From positions 9,154,501 through 9,218,500 of the forward strand of contig NC_063159.1 in assembly GCF_020921035.1 (NCBI RefSeq): a stretch of 64,000 nt of DNA, in the 5' to 3' direction. Below the pieces are notes generated by a model. It was not told the origin of the DNA. It did no database searches and saw only the letters and a list, made by a program, of their open reading frames with translations. The DNA is from Rhodamnia argentea. Lineage: Eukaryota; Streptophyta; Magnoliopsida; Myrtales; Myrtaceae. Each line of letters starts with the position of its first letter. Position 1 is the stretch's first letter. Shown in pieces: positions 631 through 53,737 of the stretch. The position numbers and the translations under genes are program-made.

Positions 631-1334
631 GGAATATTTCAAATAAGAGTCTAAAGTACCATTGTTTTATCAAGTAAGGATCTAAAGTACACATTGTTTC
701 AAATACGGGCATGAAGTGCCATCGTTTTCTCAAGTAAGGCCTCAAGTGGACATTATTTCAAATAAGAGCATGAAGTGCTCTCATTATCTCAAATAAGGAT
801 ATGAAATGGACATTATTTCAAATAAGGGTGCGAAGTGGACATTATTTCAAATAAGGTACTGAAGTGCCTTCATTGGCTCAAATAAAAACCTAGTCAAGGG
901 CATTTTTGTCCTTTATTTTTTTAATTCTTTTTCCTTTATTTTTTTGTTTTTTCCCTACCATCTTCAATGTCCAAAGAGGGCTGAGAGGGTCTCCCTTACT
1001 TGATCTAGCAAGGGCCACCCTCGCTGGCCGCAAGAGAGGTTGGCAAGAGAGGGCCTAGCCTCTCCTAAGTGAGGGTGGCCCTCGCCAAATCCGAGCGAGG
1101 GTCATCGCAACGATCCTTTCCGGCCTCGCTTTTGGGCGACTCTCGACCAGCCCTCTCTTTGGTGGCCGGCCACAAATGTAAAAGACAAAAAAGAAAAAAA
1201 AAAGAAAAAAGGAAAAAACTTCAAACAACAAAGGACGGAAATGCCATTCACCGGGTCTTTATTTAAAACAATATCCACTTCGGACTTTTATTTGAGCAAA
1301 TGAGAACATTTCATATTCTTATTTGAAATTTTCC
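631..1334. mobile_element. Non-autonomous element with inverted ends and subterminal repeats
   Basis: The left end reads GGAATATTTCAAATAAGA and the reverse complement of the right end reads GGAAAATTTCAAATAAGA. Inside each end are several degenerate repeats of about 40 bp built on 'caaataagg...gaagtg...catt'. The centre is GC-rich, flanked by T-rich and A-rich tracts. There is no transposase. I could not fix a target-site duplication, so the superfamily is open. The 65-codon frame inside is not a gene. Confidence 0.65.
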
Positions 1335-1807
1335 TTGATATAAACTCGTGCACAGGTGAGTATGTTAGAAGTTAGGCGGGTGGTCAGTCATGTGGTTAAC
1401 CAAAATGGACGTTGCTTTCAGGAAACTTTAGGTCCAACGGGATTTGTGGCATGAAACATGGAATCCAACATTAATATGTGAAGTTGACTTATTGTTACAG
1501 GAAAATATTTTGAAAGTGCCTTTCTTGATAATTGAAAACTAATTATTAATCAGAAATTTTCGTGGTTATACAGGAAAATTGCATGGTGAATTTACATACG
1601 ACTAGTCTCTAATGGACATGAAATCATGGACAAATTCTAGAATTCATCGAGAGTTTTCTAATTGACCAAATTAAGTGACTAGGTCCTCAAAATATTCAAG
1701 AATTTTTTCCGCATTTAATCTAAATCAAATTAGCTGCAAAATATTTCTACCTATAGTGTTGATCGAGTTATCAAATGTGATCATGGAAATTACATTGAGA
1801 TGGTGAG
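1335..1807. other. Intergenic DNA, nothing recognised
   Basis: AT-rich single-copy-looking sequence with no supported gene. Confidence 0.4.
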
Positions 1808-2091
1808 GGATAATTATATAAATGGTCTTGAATTTTGGCCAAATGTATAATATGGTCCATGAACTTTTAGCAAATGTTCAACCTGGTCCCTAGATTAAAC
1901 GAAAATGTCCAACTGTATTCTTCCATTTATTCAATTTCAGGAACAATATGGAATGTTTTCATATAGTTTAGGGACTGAATTGAACATGTACTAAAAGTTC
2001 GGGGATCACATGAAGCAAATTAAAAGTTCAAGGACCATATTGTATATTTTGCCAAAATTCAAGGAGTATTTGTGTCATTTTGTCAAATGGT
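1808..2091. mobile_element. Palindromic MITE, family A
   Basis: The two halves are reverse complements built on 'gtccatgaacttttag' and 'ctaaaagttcgggga', with ends reading roughly 'aaatggtcttgaattttggcc' and its complement. The same family recurs at 19,622–19,992 and 28,600–28,985. There is no coding capacity. Confidence 0.65.
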
Positions 2092-2579
2092 GAACGTGTT
2101 TTAGTGCTTTTCCTAGCTTGTTTTATTCTAATTCCACTGTTATAATCAAGAGCATTGAGCTTGTCTCCTTCATTTTTTCCCCAGATCAAGTTCAAGCTGC
2201 CATTTCAAGAAAAAAGTTCTTATAGTTACGGACATAAGAACAAAGGGGGCTTTCGTCAAAAGCTCTGTTCATCCAATTTTGGTCATAACTTCTTCCGACC
2301 CAAATCGAGTTTGCAAGTAAAAATTGCAAGATGACGAAGATATATGTCCTCAATTCCCTGCTAAACCAGATTTACTAGTATAACCCAATACTTCCAAACA
2401 TCATGGCAGAGAGATAAAGCATAACCAAACATCTCTTCAAGGCTTTAAGCAGCAATTAACGACTCTATTATGGTGCTGAAATTTCTTAATATGATTTTTG
2501 CACAGGATCTAGTGGATCAATGAAAGGCTCACCTTCCCGCGTCCGAGCGAGTTGACTATTTCATTACTCGAAGTCGAGA
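2092..2579. other. Intergenic DNA, nothing recognised
   Basis: No gene or repeat boundary could be supported here. Confidence 0.4.
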
Positions 2580-3660
2580 TCAATGAATTCTTTTCCACTC
2601 TTCACCACTAAAATTAGGCAGTGGATCATTTGCAAGGAGAATATTTGGGCCTCCTCTTCTTCTTTTTTTTTTAATCTTTTTAAAGATGTTATCATAACAT
2701 AGAGCAGGAACATTAGACATAGTAGGAACTTCATCCACAAGTTTCCCATAGATAGATGAAACCTTAATTTGCACATGTAAACTCAACTAAGGGAAACACC
2801 GACAGCTTTTATCCTCTCGTTCTCAACTCGTTGTTGATGATTGCCCTCTCCATCTGCGGAAAACAAATCGGCAGTCGGATTAGTAATTGTAACTAGAGCA
2901 GCAAATGAGTCATATGTAGCATCAAAATGAAATCTCAGGATGATGTATATAGGATAAACACGCGCTAAAACTTACAAATTGTTCATTCTAATTGGTATAA
3001 TACTTTGATGAGTTCAATCAGTTTCTACATCCATTACCACGGAAGGAAGATCCATCCTCAACTAGATCAACCAAAATGAAGGCACTACTAATGGAATACT
3101 GCCGCAACATGATAACGCATGGCGGCATGAGACTCTGATTAGAGCTTAACCATAGTAATAATCTGCATTACGAGTTCCACACTTCGTTCACAAGTAACGC
3201 TTTATGACAAACTCGTCGGAAGAAGTAAAAAGACTACATGACAACCTAAAATTTGCTTCCCAAAGATGTGAAGCTCATCTCATGTTCGATAATGATATTT
3301 TCTTTCTTGTTCATCTTAAAGAATTGCTCGGTGATCTCTTGTTTATGAGGAAATTTTGAGCCCGACAAACGTTTTGCTAGTACTTCTCCAGACAATTTGA
3401 CAGCCTTTTTCGGCCTATCGTTCTTTTAATAATTTCAAAGCCTTTGATGTCCTAAACTCATAAAGTATAAAGAGTTCTTCGCAAGACCATGAACAATTGA
3501 GAATACTTTACGTCGTTCAGGAGAAGCATAAATAGAGTTTGTTTAACAAATATAGTACCTAATATAGGATTCCGAGTTTGTCACGAAAGCGGTAGAACTC
3601 ATTCACCACCCATTCATACGATGTCTCGCAACTAGAAGAGAACCACAAAGCATCAGTGTC
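2580..3660 (-). pseudogene. Unidentified coding-like remnant
   Basis: Several minus-strand stretches read like exons. 3,553–3,660 contains the peptide ETSYEWVVNEFYRF. A frame near 3,400–3,540 contains KVFSIVHGLAKNSLYF and ends in a stop. A shifted frame at about 3,240–3,415 contains VLAKRLSGSKFPHKQ and EQFFKMNKKE. 2,640–2,785 follows a plausible acceptor (tttcccttag) and contains SSIYGKLVDEVP. Stops and frame changes separate them, so an intact product is unlikely. I do not recognise the family. It could be a decayed gene or a gene with splice sites I failed to join. Confidence 0.3.
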
Positions 3661-3837
3661 AAATAGTTCAATGATAAATACATAGGTAATCACTTTCTGA
3701 AAAATTGCAAAAACTAACGGAGAAGCTCATGTCGCATATATTTAGTGGTTGGCATGTGTTGACATAGTCAACAGAGAGGAAATATTTTCAAAATTATTAT
3801 TCTTATCCTTTCAAAACATTCATCCCTTTCAACTTTT

Positions 3838-5078
3838 ATGTCTTATTAATTTTCAAATTGAAAAAAGTGAAAGCATATAAATTTATTGATATGCATAACT
3901 TATTCAGTTCATTAAAAACTAAGTTAGAGAGAGAAGTATACCTTGTTCATGTTTTCAAGTACAACTTATTCAACTTATTCAAACATGTGAACAAGTAGTC
4001 AATTTATTTGCTTAATTTAAAATTGTGTTAATGTGATATGAAGGATAGCATATTATATGAAGTCTTTGCTTAATGCTTATTAACTATAACTATCGCAACA
4101 AAAAGAAGTTAAAAAGTTTAACTTATTTGAAACATGCATAGGGACATTTTATTCAATTTTGGAAAAAAATATGAAAAAAGTCAAAAACCTATTGCAATTG
4201 TGTTAATTTATTCCTAAACTTTTTCTTATTTGTCAATTCAATCATAAACATTTTGCAATTGTGTCAATTCAATCCATCCGACCAATTTTGGCCAACTGGA
4301 AACATGATATTTTAAATTTTTTTATTTTTTAGATTTTCTATTTTCCTTTTTTTTTTTTTTCTTCTCCTTCCCTCTTGTTCCTCACTGTCGCTACCACATT
4401 ATGGCCGAGGCGAGGCTCGACTTCGCCAGCTCGGATCCAGCGACGGTGAGGTTGAGCCTCGTCGTGGCTGGACTAGGCACGGCCTGGCTAGCTGGAGGTA
4501 CAAGAGGGAGGAAGGAAAAAAAAGAAAAGAAAAGAAAAAATAATTTAAAAAAAAATTAAAACATTATGTCACCAGTCGACCATTGTCCATGTCGGCGCCA
4601 GTCGGCCCAAATTCATCAGATGGACTAAAATGACATAATTGTAAAATGTTTAAGACTGAATCGGTAATAAAAATAAATTCAGAACTAAATTGGCACAATT
4701 GCAATAGGTTTTTGACTTTTTTCCACATTCTTTCCAAAATTGAATAAAATGTCCCTATGCATGTTTCAAATAAGTTAAACTTTTTAACTTCTTTTTGTTG
4801 CGATAGTTATAGTTAATAAGCATAAAGCAAAAACTTCATATAATATGTTATCCTTCATGTCATATTAATATAATTTTAAATTAAGAAAATAAATTGACTA
4901 CTTATTCACATGTTTGAATAAGTTGTACTTGAAAACATGAACAACATATACTTCTCGCTCTAACTTAGTTTTTAATGAACTGAATAAGTTATGCATAACA
5001 ATAAATTTATATGTTTTCAATTTTTTTGCCATGCTGAAAATTAATAAAGAAAAAAAAATAAAGAATTCCAAACTAACT
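3838..5078. repeat. 1.2-kb foldback (long inverted repeat)
   Basis: About 440 bp at 3,838–4,290 is repeated in inverted orientation at about 4,620–5,078. Both arms carry matching landmarks, for example 'aacatgcatagggacatttt' on the left and its complement at 4,745–4,764, and 'gttattcaacttattcaaac' paired near 4,910. The middle is T-rich, then GC-rich, then A-rich. The inner part resembles the TIR family at 39,870–40,770 ('acctattgcaattgtg'), so a TIR element may form the loop of a larger foldback. No protein is encoded. Confidence 0.75.
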
Positions 5079-41919: not shown

Positions 41920-42345
41920 CTGTTCTCTTCTCCCACAGTCCCATGTCCTTTGCTCTTTCGCTATCCGTAGTTTTGAGCCGTCGCGAATGCTTTATCCATT
42001 CATTCTAGGTAAGCATATCCTCATTGTCCCACGCATTTCTCTATACAAGTACACTCATATGACTTGTCAGATGTGATATGACCAAACGTTTCACAAAACT
42101 AATTATGGATGAGATACTTTTTTTTTTGGCCATTTAATTTATAAGATACCTTGCTTGTGTTCATTCGTGGAATAATTGGTTCACGATTCTTTTACTTTCT
42201 TAGGTTTTTGATTAGATTCTTTCTTCAAACAAATCAGCAAGGAACCATCTCTTCTCACCATGTATATATACATTTCCCACTATTCTATTCTCTACAAGTC
42301 GAAAATACATTGAAAAGAGCGATAGAGTTCAAACTAAGCAAAAGC
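41920..42345 (+). promoter_or_regulatory. Leader region of DUF4220 copy B
   Basis: This region shares blocks with the leaders at 50,440–51,260, for example 'tggatgagatactttt', 'ccttgcttgtgttcattcg', 'aaggaaccatctc' and 'aaactaagcaaaa' just before ATG. It is the common DUF4220 leader. No TATA box is convincing. Confidence 0.5.
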
Positions 42346-43353
42346 ATGGCATTTAGCTCCACTTCGGGTATTTGGAGCAAATGGAATATCCGAGGCTGCG
42401 TCATACTGGGTCTCTCACTTCAGGTCTTTCTTGTTCTATTTGCACCCCTTGTAAAGAAAATAGCGAATCATCGCACCATTTTCCTCTTGTGGTTGGCCTA
42501 TTTGATGGCCGACTCGGTAGTTGTATACGGGATTGGGCTCATCTCTCGGAACCAAGGTAATTCGTGCGCCCATGCGGATCAAGTAGATAGATCACTTCGG
42601 GCATTTTGGGCCTCATTTCTTTTGTTACATCTTGGGGGTCCAGACACCATCACTGCCTTCTCATTAGAGGATAGTTCGCTTTGGAAATGGCATCTACTTA
42701 GTCTCATCTTCCAAGTAGGTAGCGCCATCTATCTCTTTGGGCAAGTATTTCGAGCGACAAGTTACTTGGTGATCCCAACGATGCTAGTGTTTCTTGCCGG
42801 GGTCATAAAAAATGCGGAGAGGACACTAGCACTTAATCTCACGAGCCTCTCGAGCCTCAGGGAATCGATGATGGTAAACGATGAGCTAACCTATAATGCA
42901 TTTGTGCTGTTGGTTGAAGAACTCAAAACTCTGGGGCGTAATTATGCTAATGAAGAAAAAGCAAGGCTTGCGGAGAGCGTGGTGGTGAAGCACACTTACT
43001 ACTTTAATATCTTTAAAGTCTTCATCTTAGATCTCTTCTACGAAGATACAGAATGCCTCATAAGCCGCTAATATGTCCGCAAAATTTCTGCATTGGATGC
43101 ATTAAGGGTGATATCAGTCGAACTCCATTTCATTTACGAGGTGCTCCACACAAAAGCATTGACAATATGTTCCAAGTGGAGCTGCATTTTTCCCTTCATA
43201 GCCTTCACTGAGGTTGTGATGGCTTTCGTCTTATTCAATTGCGTCAAGGAGCATCAGCTCCCCAAACTCGATGTGGAAATCACTCATACCCTTCTTTTTC
43301 GAGGGATCGCTCTTGATGTCATAGCTCTATTTATGCTTGTTTTCTTCGATTAG
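42346..43353 (+). pseudogene. DUF4220 copy B, truncated by two stop codons
   Basis: From ATG at 42,346 the frame matches the intact gene closely (LSLQVFLVLFAPL, FLLWLAYLMAD, KAFWASF replaced by RAFWASF, LHLGGPDTITAFSLEDSS, NAERTLALNL). It stops at TAA 43,069–43,071, just before the YVRKISALDALRV segment. The same frame continues to a second stop at 43,351–43,353, where the intact gene has the Trp of SNWTLA (TGG to TAG). After that, similarity ends and the DUF594 half is absent. A 241-residue protein with only the N-terminal membrane spans could be made, but I regard the locus as a pseudogene. Confidence 0.8.
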
Positions 43354-50269: not shown

Positions 50270-51266
50270 CATCTCAACATCCACATATTCATTTCTCACT
50301 TCCTCCTATACAATCCAAAGTTCTATGGAGAGGAGCAATAAAGTTCTAATTAAGCATAATCATGGAATTTTGTTCCATTTCATATCTATGGAGCAAATGG
50401 AACGTACAAGGTTCCATCATATTGAACTAATCATGGATGAGATGCTTTTCTTCAGCCATTTAATTTAATGCATGAGATACGTTGCTTGTGTTCATTCGCG
50501 AAATGGTTGGTTCACGATTCTTTTACCTACTTGGATTCTTGAATAGATTCTTTATTCGAACAAAAAAGCAATGAACCATCTCAACATGTATATATACATT
50601 TCCCAATGTTCCTCCTATACAAACAAAAATTTTATGGAGAGGAGCAATAATATTCAAATTAAGCATAAACATGGCATTTAGTTCCATTTCAGCTCTGTGG
50701 AACAAAGAGGTTCCGTCATATTAAACTAATGATGGATGAGATACTTTTCTTCATCCATTTACTAAATTAGATACCTTGCTTGTGTTCATTTGCGAAATGG
50801 TTGATTTGCATTTCTTTTACCTTCTTGGGTTTTCGAATAGATTAATTCTTCCGACTAACAAACAAGGAACCATTTCAACATGTGCACATAAACATTCCCT
50901 GCTGTTCTTCTTATACGAACCAATTATATCTGTTTCTCCTATACACTCCCAAGTTATGCAAAGAGCAGCGATAAAGTTCAACCTAAGCAAAAACATGGCA
51001 TTGAGCTCTATTTTGGATATATGGAACAAATGGAACGTTCGAGGCTCCCTCATAATGAACAAATCATGAATGAGATAATTTTCATCAATCATTTAACTCA
51101 CGAGACACCTTGCTTTTGTTCATTCGCGGAAAGGTTGGTTCGCAATTCTTTTACCTTCTTGGATTTTTGAATAGGTTATTTCTTTTGACAAACAACAAGG
51201 AACCGTCTCAACATGTATACTTCTATATTTCCCATTGTTCCTCCTATGCGAACTGATATTAAATAG
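50270..51266 (+). repeat. Tandem array of DUF4220 leader-plus-start segments
   Basis: At least three successive units, about 290–340 bp each, repeat the same order: 'ctaatcatggatgagat', 'ccttgcttgtgttcattcg', 'ttcttttaccttcttgg', 'aggaaccatctcaacatg', 'ttcctcctatac', 'agcaataaagttc', then ATGGCATTTAG or ATGGCATTGAG and some 20 codons (such as MALSSILDIWNKWNVRGS) before the next leader begins. A fourth unit is cut by the hAT element at 51,267 and resumes at 52,351–52,420 ('aaactaagcaagaacatggc'). None has a gene body. Confidence 0.8.
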
Positions 51267-51639
51267 TAGGGGTGTCAATGGTTCAGTTCAGTTCGGTTTT
51301 TCAAAAAACCGAACCGAACTGAACTATTAGGGAATGCGTTTGAACTGAACCAAAACTCATCTTGAACTGAACTGAATTGAGCTGAAAAATTCAATTTAGT
51401 TCGGTTCGGTTCAGTTTGGTTCATGGTTTTTGACGAATCAGTGCAACTCAGATTATTTCCTCTTCCCAACTGTATCGCAAGCCGCCCACTGTTTCTCTCT
51501 CCCCCAGCCCAAAACCCACCTCCACCTCCTTCTTCTTCAGAAAACTCCTAATTTGCAAGCCATCCGAACCAGCTCATAAATTTTCCCATTCGACCGAATT
51601 GAATCTGCCGCCATGTTCGTCGCCAATCCCAATTGAGCC

Positions 51640-51930
51640 CTAGTCCCTACTTCCTCCTTCTTCTTCCTGTTTCTGCTTCATCCTCATCTTCAGCTCACGC
51701 ATGCCAAGAAGCCCACGCCCTTGCCTTCCAATCATGTTGAAGCACCTAGCGTAGGCAAGGTGCCGGACGGCGCATCGACACGTGCCGATTTGGGTGCGGA
51801 AATGGTCGAAAGCCGATGACTTCTTGAACTGCGCGACCACGCGCTTCAAGCTGCGCTCCTTGTAGAGGAAATCGTGGGCCGATTTGAGGGTGGTGACCAA
51901 GTCGCCAGCTTGCAGGGAGGTGGAAAATGT
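51640..51930 (-). pseudogene. PPR-protein-like fragment captured by the hAT element
   Basis: A minus-strand frame of about 86 codons contains LKSAHDFLYKERSLKRVVAQ, FKKSSAFDHFRTQIG and VRHLAYARCFNMI. The spacing of YKER-LK-VV-FKK-FR-G-VR-LA-A-F resembles the segment before the first repeats of mitochondrial PPR proteins of the At1g55890/At3g13160 type, as I remember them. The fragment ends in a Lys/Glu-rich tail and a stop, unlike a real PPR protein. The identification is moderate; that it is non-transposon coding sequence is more secure. Confidence 0.45.
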
Positions 51931-52017
51931 GCTCTTGAGGAGGTGTAGTCATTTCTGTGTCTCTTAGCTTGTGAATCTGCAGTTGGAGAAGAGAGATTGG
52001 AAATGACGAGGACTTAC

Positions 52018-52137
52018 AATGGCGCAGGTGGCGAAATTAGGGTTGAGGAATTTCTTCGCGAGGTAGTGAGTGATGATATCCTCGTCCATCGGGTGGAATT
52101 TGAAGCCCGGAGGCAAGTCCACGATGTCATCTTCCAT
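52018..52137 (-). pseudogene. NAC-domain first exon captured by the hAT element
   Basis: From ATG (52,137) the 40 codons read through [20 protein letters not shown], the hallmark of NAC subdomain A. A consensus donor (CCATT|GTAAGT) lies exactly where NAC genes usually have their first intron. The following subdomains B–E are absent; the next DNA is of a different origin. It was therefore captured as genomic DNA with its splice donor. FHPT is changed to FHPM and DEEL to DEDI. It cannot bind DNA as a NAC factor alone. Confidence 0.8.
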
Positions 52138-52420
52138 GGCAACCGTGAGCTTAAGTTTTTAACTTTTTATTTTTATGGTTCGGTTCGATTAATCGAACCG
52201 AACTGAAAAAAACTGAACTAAAAAATAAATTGTGATTCTTTTTATTATCCGAACTGAAAACCAAACCGAACTGAAAATGAACGAAATTCCAGTTCGGTTC
52301 GGTTCGGTTCAGTTTTTGGTTCGGTTCGCGGTTCGGTTTTGACACCCCTATTAAATAGGGAGGAGCAAAAAAGGTTCAAACTAAGCAAGAACATGGCATA
52401 AATCTACGATATGTAAGAAC

Positions 52421-53278: not shown

Positions 53279-53737
53279 AAACAGATTCTTGTGCTCTTTG
53301 ATTCGAATAAATTATTATTATTATTTTTTTAAGCTTTGATCGATTATGATTGAGTCAATTTCAATGAATACCAATTTCTTTCGCTTGTTGCCAAAAGCCT
53401 AACTTTACTCTCCTTTCCATACAACGGATCTTGTTTTTATTCCATGAGAAGATTTCGGTGTCCCTTTTCTATTCTTTGATGCCAAACTTGACAGAGGAGA
53501 GATGCCAAAGTACTTTGTGCCGCGGTGAATTCCCTATCTCTTCATCCATTTCATGGATGATATACTTTTCTTCTGCCACTTCAAAGTATAGGACACCTTG
53601 CTTGTGTTCACTCTCGAGCTTTTGAATAGATGTTGTCTTCTGACATACAAGTGAGGAACCATCTCAACATCCTATATGTTTTGTTGCAACCGAAATTATA
53701 ACGAAGAGGAGCCATAAAATTCAAACAAAGCAAAATC
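53279..53737 (+). promoter_or_regulatory. Leader region of the intact DUF4220 gene
   Basis: It shares the cluster leader ('tttcatggatgatatactt', 'ccttgcttgtgttcactc', 'aggaaccatctcaacatcc', 'caaacaaagcaaaatc' before ATG). A possible TATA-like CTATATGT lies at 53,671. The leader is almost the same as that of copy C and more distant from copy B. Confidence 0.45.

Follow-up and report, generated by a model that had tools for sequence, protein, structure and literature searches.

Gene capture has been called rare in hAT transposons, and the maize groups Ds2 and Ds-l4 together provide eleven elements with gene fragments (2 Ds2 and 9 Ds-l4) (PMC3260210). In grapevine, Hatvine-6 is an hAT system with gene capture, in which interiors are often unique or present in few copies and match host exons as well as introns (PMC2528002). 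Pack-hATs have been published from maize and rice, and capture from more than one locus has been reported for Pack-TYPE elements (PMC8903248). In the part consulted of a 2026 review, a capture route for unlinked fragments is considered possibly undiscovered, and the joining of unlinked gene fragments by DNA transposons is treated as unsettled (PMC13317346). For Eucalyptus and the Myrtaceae, no report of gene capture by hAT elements was present among the papers listed in literature searches.

Here, we describe a non-autonomous hAT element of 1,084 bp (positions 51267-52350) in Rhodamnia argentea. The window, the whole stretch of 64,000 nucleotides that we analyzed, corresponds to C10:9154501-9218500 of a genome of 346.7 Mb. 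The ends of the element, its target-site duplication, its copies, and the donor-gene DNA inside it identify it as a Pack-hAT with three captured gene pieces, to which we assign a probability of about 0.93; this figure applies to the three-gene Pack-hAT identity and not to the mechanism of capture. The element thus falls within the definition of a class that is already published, as is capture from several loci by Pack-TYPE elements. The features are listed in Table 1.

Table 1. Features of the Rhodamnia element and its surroundings (window positions)
Feature	Position	Strand	Details
Left target-site duplication TTAAATAG	51259..51266	none	
Left terminal inverted repeat TAGGGGTGTCAA	51267..51278	+	12 bp, perfect pair
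Left subterminal region	51267..51451		11 GTTCRG/CYGAAC motifs; common to other family members
Probable element-core stretch	51491..51553 (query 225-287)		78-84% to five elements, L013-L017
5' end of putative beta-propeller-like gene, donor on C1	51584..51733	+	Start codon 51613; MFVANPN, then stop
C1-gene/PPR junction	51729..51733		CGATC in both donors
PPR 5' flank and first ~78 codons, donor on C3	51731..51982	-	Start codon 51952; frameshifted
Start of NAC intron 1	51989..52017, far end approximate	-	Splice donor GTAAGT 52017-52012
NAC exon 1, codons 1-40, donor on C7	52017..52141	-	Start codon 52138; last 43 nt of donor exon absent
Right subterminal region	52162..52350		11 GTTCRG/CYGAAC motifs; common to other family members
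Right terminal inverted repeat TTGACACCCCTA	52339..52350	-	12 bp, perfect pair
Right target-site duplication TTAAATAG	52351..52358	none	
Neighboring repeat unit without the element (related empty site)	50384..50677	+	79% across joined flanks, bases 1-291

With the maize and rice Pack-hATs the element shares hAT ends, an 8-bp duplication, and captured coding DNA; compared with what the consulted part of that work describes, it is distinguished by three donors on three contigs, a truncated sister element that represents an earlier stage, and a join at a defined microhomology (PMC8903248). Like Hatvine-6, it belongs to a group with common ends and differing interiors that contain host-gene DNA, but Hatvine-6 has a common transposase coding sequence, whereas the Rhodamnia element, at ~1.1 kb, has none (PMC2528002). 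Its resemblance to Ds2 and Ds-l4 lies in the non-autonomous hAT structure, the modal Ds-l4 length of ~1 kb, and filler DNA that sometimes derives from intron-bearing genes; in contrast to the elements in the portion of that study consulted, its three-donor interior has been amplified to four full copies (PMC3260210). Among the metazoan Pack-TIRs, Pack-hAT-N8_XT is likewise a multi-copy hAT with a piece of a gene 5' UTR, and microhomology at breakpoints has been described together with gap-filling and template-switch models; these are animal elements, however, and a three-donor composite was not met among them in the sections consulted (PMC8277862).

The original prediction of an hAT element with perfect 12-bp inverted ends and a perfect 8-bp duplication proved correct on both counts. 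The dense subterminal motifs that it described were also confirmed: GTTCRG occurs 11 times in the first 185 bases of the element, once in the 710 bases of the interior, and 11 times in the last 189 bases. Shuffled ends (5,000 base shuffles per end) contained ~0.1 motifs on average and never more than 3. The short terminal inverted repeats and the subterminal repeats agree with membership in the hAT superfamily. The ends, the core, and the three gene fragments account for nearly all 1,084 bp of this apparently transposase-free element.

Related repeats without the element align across its joined flanks, showing that the element is an insertion. In addition to the adjacent repeat unit listed in Table 1, a genome search revealed a second element-free repeat at window positions 42097-42352, which aligns with bases 42-291 of the joined flanks. 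Both empty sites are paralogues and not alleles of the insertion site, and they do not match it in the target bases. The repeat unit that hosts the insertion recurs at both of these places in the window and in a cluster at C1:25.25-25.95 Mb. A DUF4220 frame lies upstream of the element (44726), and a DUF4220/DUF594 frame starts at 53702, ~1.35 kb downstream.

The interior had been predicted to hold fragments of two genes, an NAC exon and a PPR-like piece, both on the same strand. Searching the genome by nucleotide identity recovered a donor for each, on C7 for NAC and on C3 for PPR, and both pieces do lie on the minus strand; the count of two did not survive, because a third fragment derives from a gene on C1. 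The NAC piece matches its donor at 113 of 125 bases (90%), with the Pfam NAM domain in both frames scanned. The PPR piece matches at 218 of 252 ungapped bases (86.5%, or 81% with gaps), and five PPR models match the donor. Its nature was thus predicted correctly, but its proposed extent of 51640-51930 was not, as part of that interval belongs to the C1-gene fragment (Table 1). The latter matches a 405-amino acid frame at 137 of 150 ungapped bases (91%, or 83% with gaps). Pfam matches of this third donor were weak and under the cut-off (SBBP, 0.008; SGL, 0.012), and phmmer returned one SodC-family chain at 4e-7 and, weakly, designed Pizza proteins, which hints at a beta-propeller-like protein and supports no closer name. 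All three pieces are gene 5' ends that include the start codon, extending 4 (NAC), 32 (PPR), and 29 bases (C1 gene) upstream of the ATG, and their donors sit on three chromosome-sized contigs. Host-gene DNA with identifiable donors (NAC, PPR, and beta-propeller-like) is what Pack-TYPE membership entails.

Short pieces of conserved families can match one another at the protein level, and the similarities could in principle reflect chance or a conserved gene with no transposon involved. The probability of this is close to nil: the donor matches have nucleotide E-values of 1e-40 to 1e-67 and include intron and pre-ATG bases, and the existence of four copies with exact ends and duplications refutes it.

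We also compared the column majority of the four copies with the best single copy for identity to each donor. The values were 88.7 versus 89.1% for PPR, 91.2 versus 93.5% for NAC, and 92.0 versus 91.4% for the C1 gene, with no consistent gain for the majority. Because the majority is not clearly nearer than single copies, the true donors may be lost or unseen paralogues, of which the present genes would be close relatives.

Besides the window copy, the genome search yielded at least three further full-length copies, on C1, C9, and C5, with 93, 91, and 87% identity to it, respectively; all copy counts from this search are lower bounds. Their 8-bp duplications (CTTTATTT on C1, GTAGCCGG on C9, and ATACGCAT on C5) are perfect, so that four of four full copies, including that on C10, have perfect and mutually different duplications. 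The copies therefore look transposed, and the captured DNA moved along with the element, as in other Pack-TYPE elements. Kimura two-parameter distances between copy pairs range from 0.062 to 0.124, with mostly transitions, and these values mark the lineage as old and decaying.

When the genome was searched with the interior alone (window 51440-52165), 11 candidates were scored and 12 matches obtained. These comprised the four copies, two pieces of a shortened relative (L012), the three donors, two weaker matches to the NAC part on C8 and C11 (62-63 bases, 84-87%), and one element-core match at C8:25.49 Mb, inside an L013-type match. L012, at C10:7.78 Mb, is broken off on the PPR side and lacks the left part. 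The interior was found only in the four-copy lineage and, in truncated form, in L012; of the 16 further family members examined, five share the short core stretch at 51491-51553 and none has the rest. This stretch is probably part of the element itself and not a captured gene, and its matches to L013-L017 suggest that the recipient element was probably similar to these.

The junctions between the pieces retain part of their history. After NAC codon 40, the element continues with GTAAGTCCTCGTC, the start of donor intron 1; the 43 exon 1 nucleotides that precede this intron in the donor are gone, with a 1-base overlap at the deletion. The splice donor that had been predicted is thus genuine, whereas the complete first exon proposed with it is ruled out by the missing 43 nt. 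The presence of intron 1 sequence indicates that DNA was the source of the capture. The fragments of the C1 gene and the PPR gene abut directly, with no element end in between, and the CGATC at their junction is kept in the copies on C1, C9, and C5, whereas the window copy reads CAATC. At least five shared bases occurred in 0.535% of 200,000 random breakpoint pairs drawn from the two donors; microhomology was measured at this one capture junction, as divergence blurs the remaining boundaries. L012 retains, next to its NAC intron and ahead of the PPR start, DNA from 189-30 bases before the ATG of the C3 PPR gene (130 of 152 ungapped bases). The match scores 152, compared with 28 for the best of 200 shuffles, and the four full copies have lost this DNA. 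The GTAAGT-to-TGCAG distance is accordingly 41 nt in the full copies and 208 nt in L012.

We consider a repair-based capture of the gene pieces somewhat more probable than all other routes combined. An older core element, with ~290-317 bases on the left and ~190 on the right, would have suffered a break or a stalled fork in its interior. Error-prone gap repair could then have copied the 5' ends of unlinked genes, switching templates at short homologies, and the composite would later have been trimmed internally, with loss of the PPR-upstream DNA, and have spread by transposition using the transposase of another element. The source of this transposase and the order of the captures are inferred.

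Alternatively, paired elements inserted near each gene could have been mobilized by their outer ends together with the host DNA between them, and the process repeated for each gene. Such a fusion of neighboring insertions has been proposed for Pack-CACTA and, on the basis of sequence structures in maize and rice, for further superfamilies, hAT among them (PMC8903248 and PMC13317346). For the Rhodamnia element it is unlikely, because the donors lie on three contigs, because 9 kb around each donor contained neither a family end nor an inverted repeat (≤1 mismatch) in any of the three cases, and because the join at the common CGATC has no element end within it; excised elements, on the other hand, could leave no trace at donor loci.

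To place the lineage in its family, we compared 16 of the other loci listed with common ends (L013-L028), allowing ≤2 end mismatches. Among their 8-bp duplications, 10 are perfect, three have one mismatch, two have two, and one (L024) has none in register. A single strict form of the end, 27 bases long, had 14 exact matches in the genome, compared with 0 for the reversed control, and this number is a lower bound on family size. Listing elements with the same ends, as had been suggested at the outset, thus revealed a larger family whose interiors differ and split into several groups. The opposite outcome, an interior common to the whole family with no gene origin, does not hold, since the 16 others lack it apart from the core stretch.

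One member, L018 (C1:5393300-5399300, 1044-4983), is 3,940 bp long, shares these ends, and is flanked by a perfect duplication of 8 bp (GTTGGAAG). It carries a 190-amino acid BED-finger ORF in which Pfam detected zf-BED only, with no catalytic or dimerization domain in this one scanned ORF, and a search of solved structures with it gave 0 matches. L018 is probably the remnant of a transposase-bearing family member; no intact autonomous partner was met among the members compared. Genome searches with the interiors of L013, L022, and L025 gave mainly matches to what look like their own copies, and gene capture is not claimed for these groups. For the L019 interior, no clear gene was present among the ORFs at two non-element matches. 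Fifteen L019-type interior matches of 73-78% identity lie in one orientation within a 0.8-Mb stretch (C1:21.26-22.09 Mb), which suggests that a larger unit was amplified in tandem there.

A second group in the family also carries gene DNA. L021 (C1:25450500-25453600, 968-2056) is multi-copy, with further copies on C5, C6, C7, C8, and C10; the group contains seven full interiors, including the query, and the duplications at six loci checked were perfect in two and had one mismatch in four. Its interior holds two pieces of a Glyco_transf_8 gene on C6, bases 150-81 before the ATG and codons 58-96, and the start codon is absent. The upstream stretch fits a C2 locus slightly better (90% versus 84% for C6). 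We take the C6 donor to be GATL-like. The interior also has a stretch that matches C11, with 0 Pfam hits. These matches support the capture of family 8 glycosyltransferase DNA in the L021 group as a second Pack-hAT lineage.

Across both lineages, all four nameable donors contributed 5'-proximal DNA, three pieces with the start codon and the Glyco_transf_8 upstream stretch with codons 58-96. That this hAT family repeatedly takes up such DNA by template switching during repair, with joins at microhomologies, is a tentative generalization to which we give somewhat less than even odds.

Finally, we considered whether the captured pieces might be functional, as an exon donor, as part of a chimeric peptide, or by giving rise to small or antisense RNAs that affect the genes of origin. 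The NAC frame (codons 1-40) is open in three of the four full copies (window, C1, and C9) and disrupted by a 2-nt deletion in the copy on C5 and by a 17-nt insertion in L012. The NAC region also diverges least among copies (0.053, compared with 0.075-0.112 elsewhere). Summed over the three pairs of open copies, 14 of 22 differences are nonsynonymous, whereas in the absence of constraint a share of ~79% (95 of 120 sites) would be expected; silent changes make up 8 of 22 against a flat expectation of ~21%; these counts are small, the copy pairs are not independent, and one of four full copies is frameshifted, so the numbers are too few to speak for or against selection on the NAC part. A transition-rich mutation spectrum, moreover, favors silent changes. 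The other two frames argue against function: the PPR frame is shifted just past the start codon in all four full copies (L012 has the correct frame at the start and leaves it further on), and the C1-gene frame meets a stop at codon 8 in the three copies with a start codon, which is deleted in the copy on C9.

A functional mini-intron joining NAC to PPR was rejected. The spliced reading is open for 116 codons in the window copy, but the three remaining full copies have open lengths of 87, 47, and 63 codons, and plant introns are usually longer than the 41-nt interval; given the unequal lengths and the short interval, we do not credit it.

At the RNA level, perfect 21-nt matches to the donors begin at 21 positions for NAC, 13 for PPR, and 10 for the C1 gene, making small-RNA cross-talk between the element and each donor possible. 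Since the pieces lie on opposite strands, a read-through transcript in either direction would carry antisense sequence of one or more donors. Weighing these observations, we regard a function of the captured pieces as very improbable; most likely they are passengers.

For annotation of the Rhodamnia genome, copies of the element could easily be mistaken for NAC or PPR genes. With three donors, several copies, an earlier-stage sister, an intron, and a microhomology junction, models of capture can be tested in this family by comparative genomics. If the template-switch reading is true, the family would be a natural record of a route for the capture of unlinked fragments.
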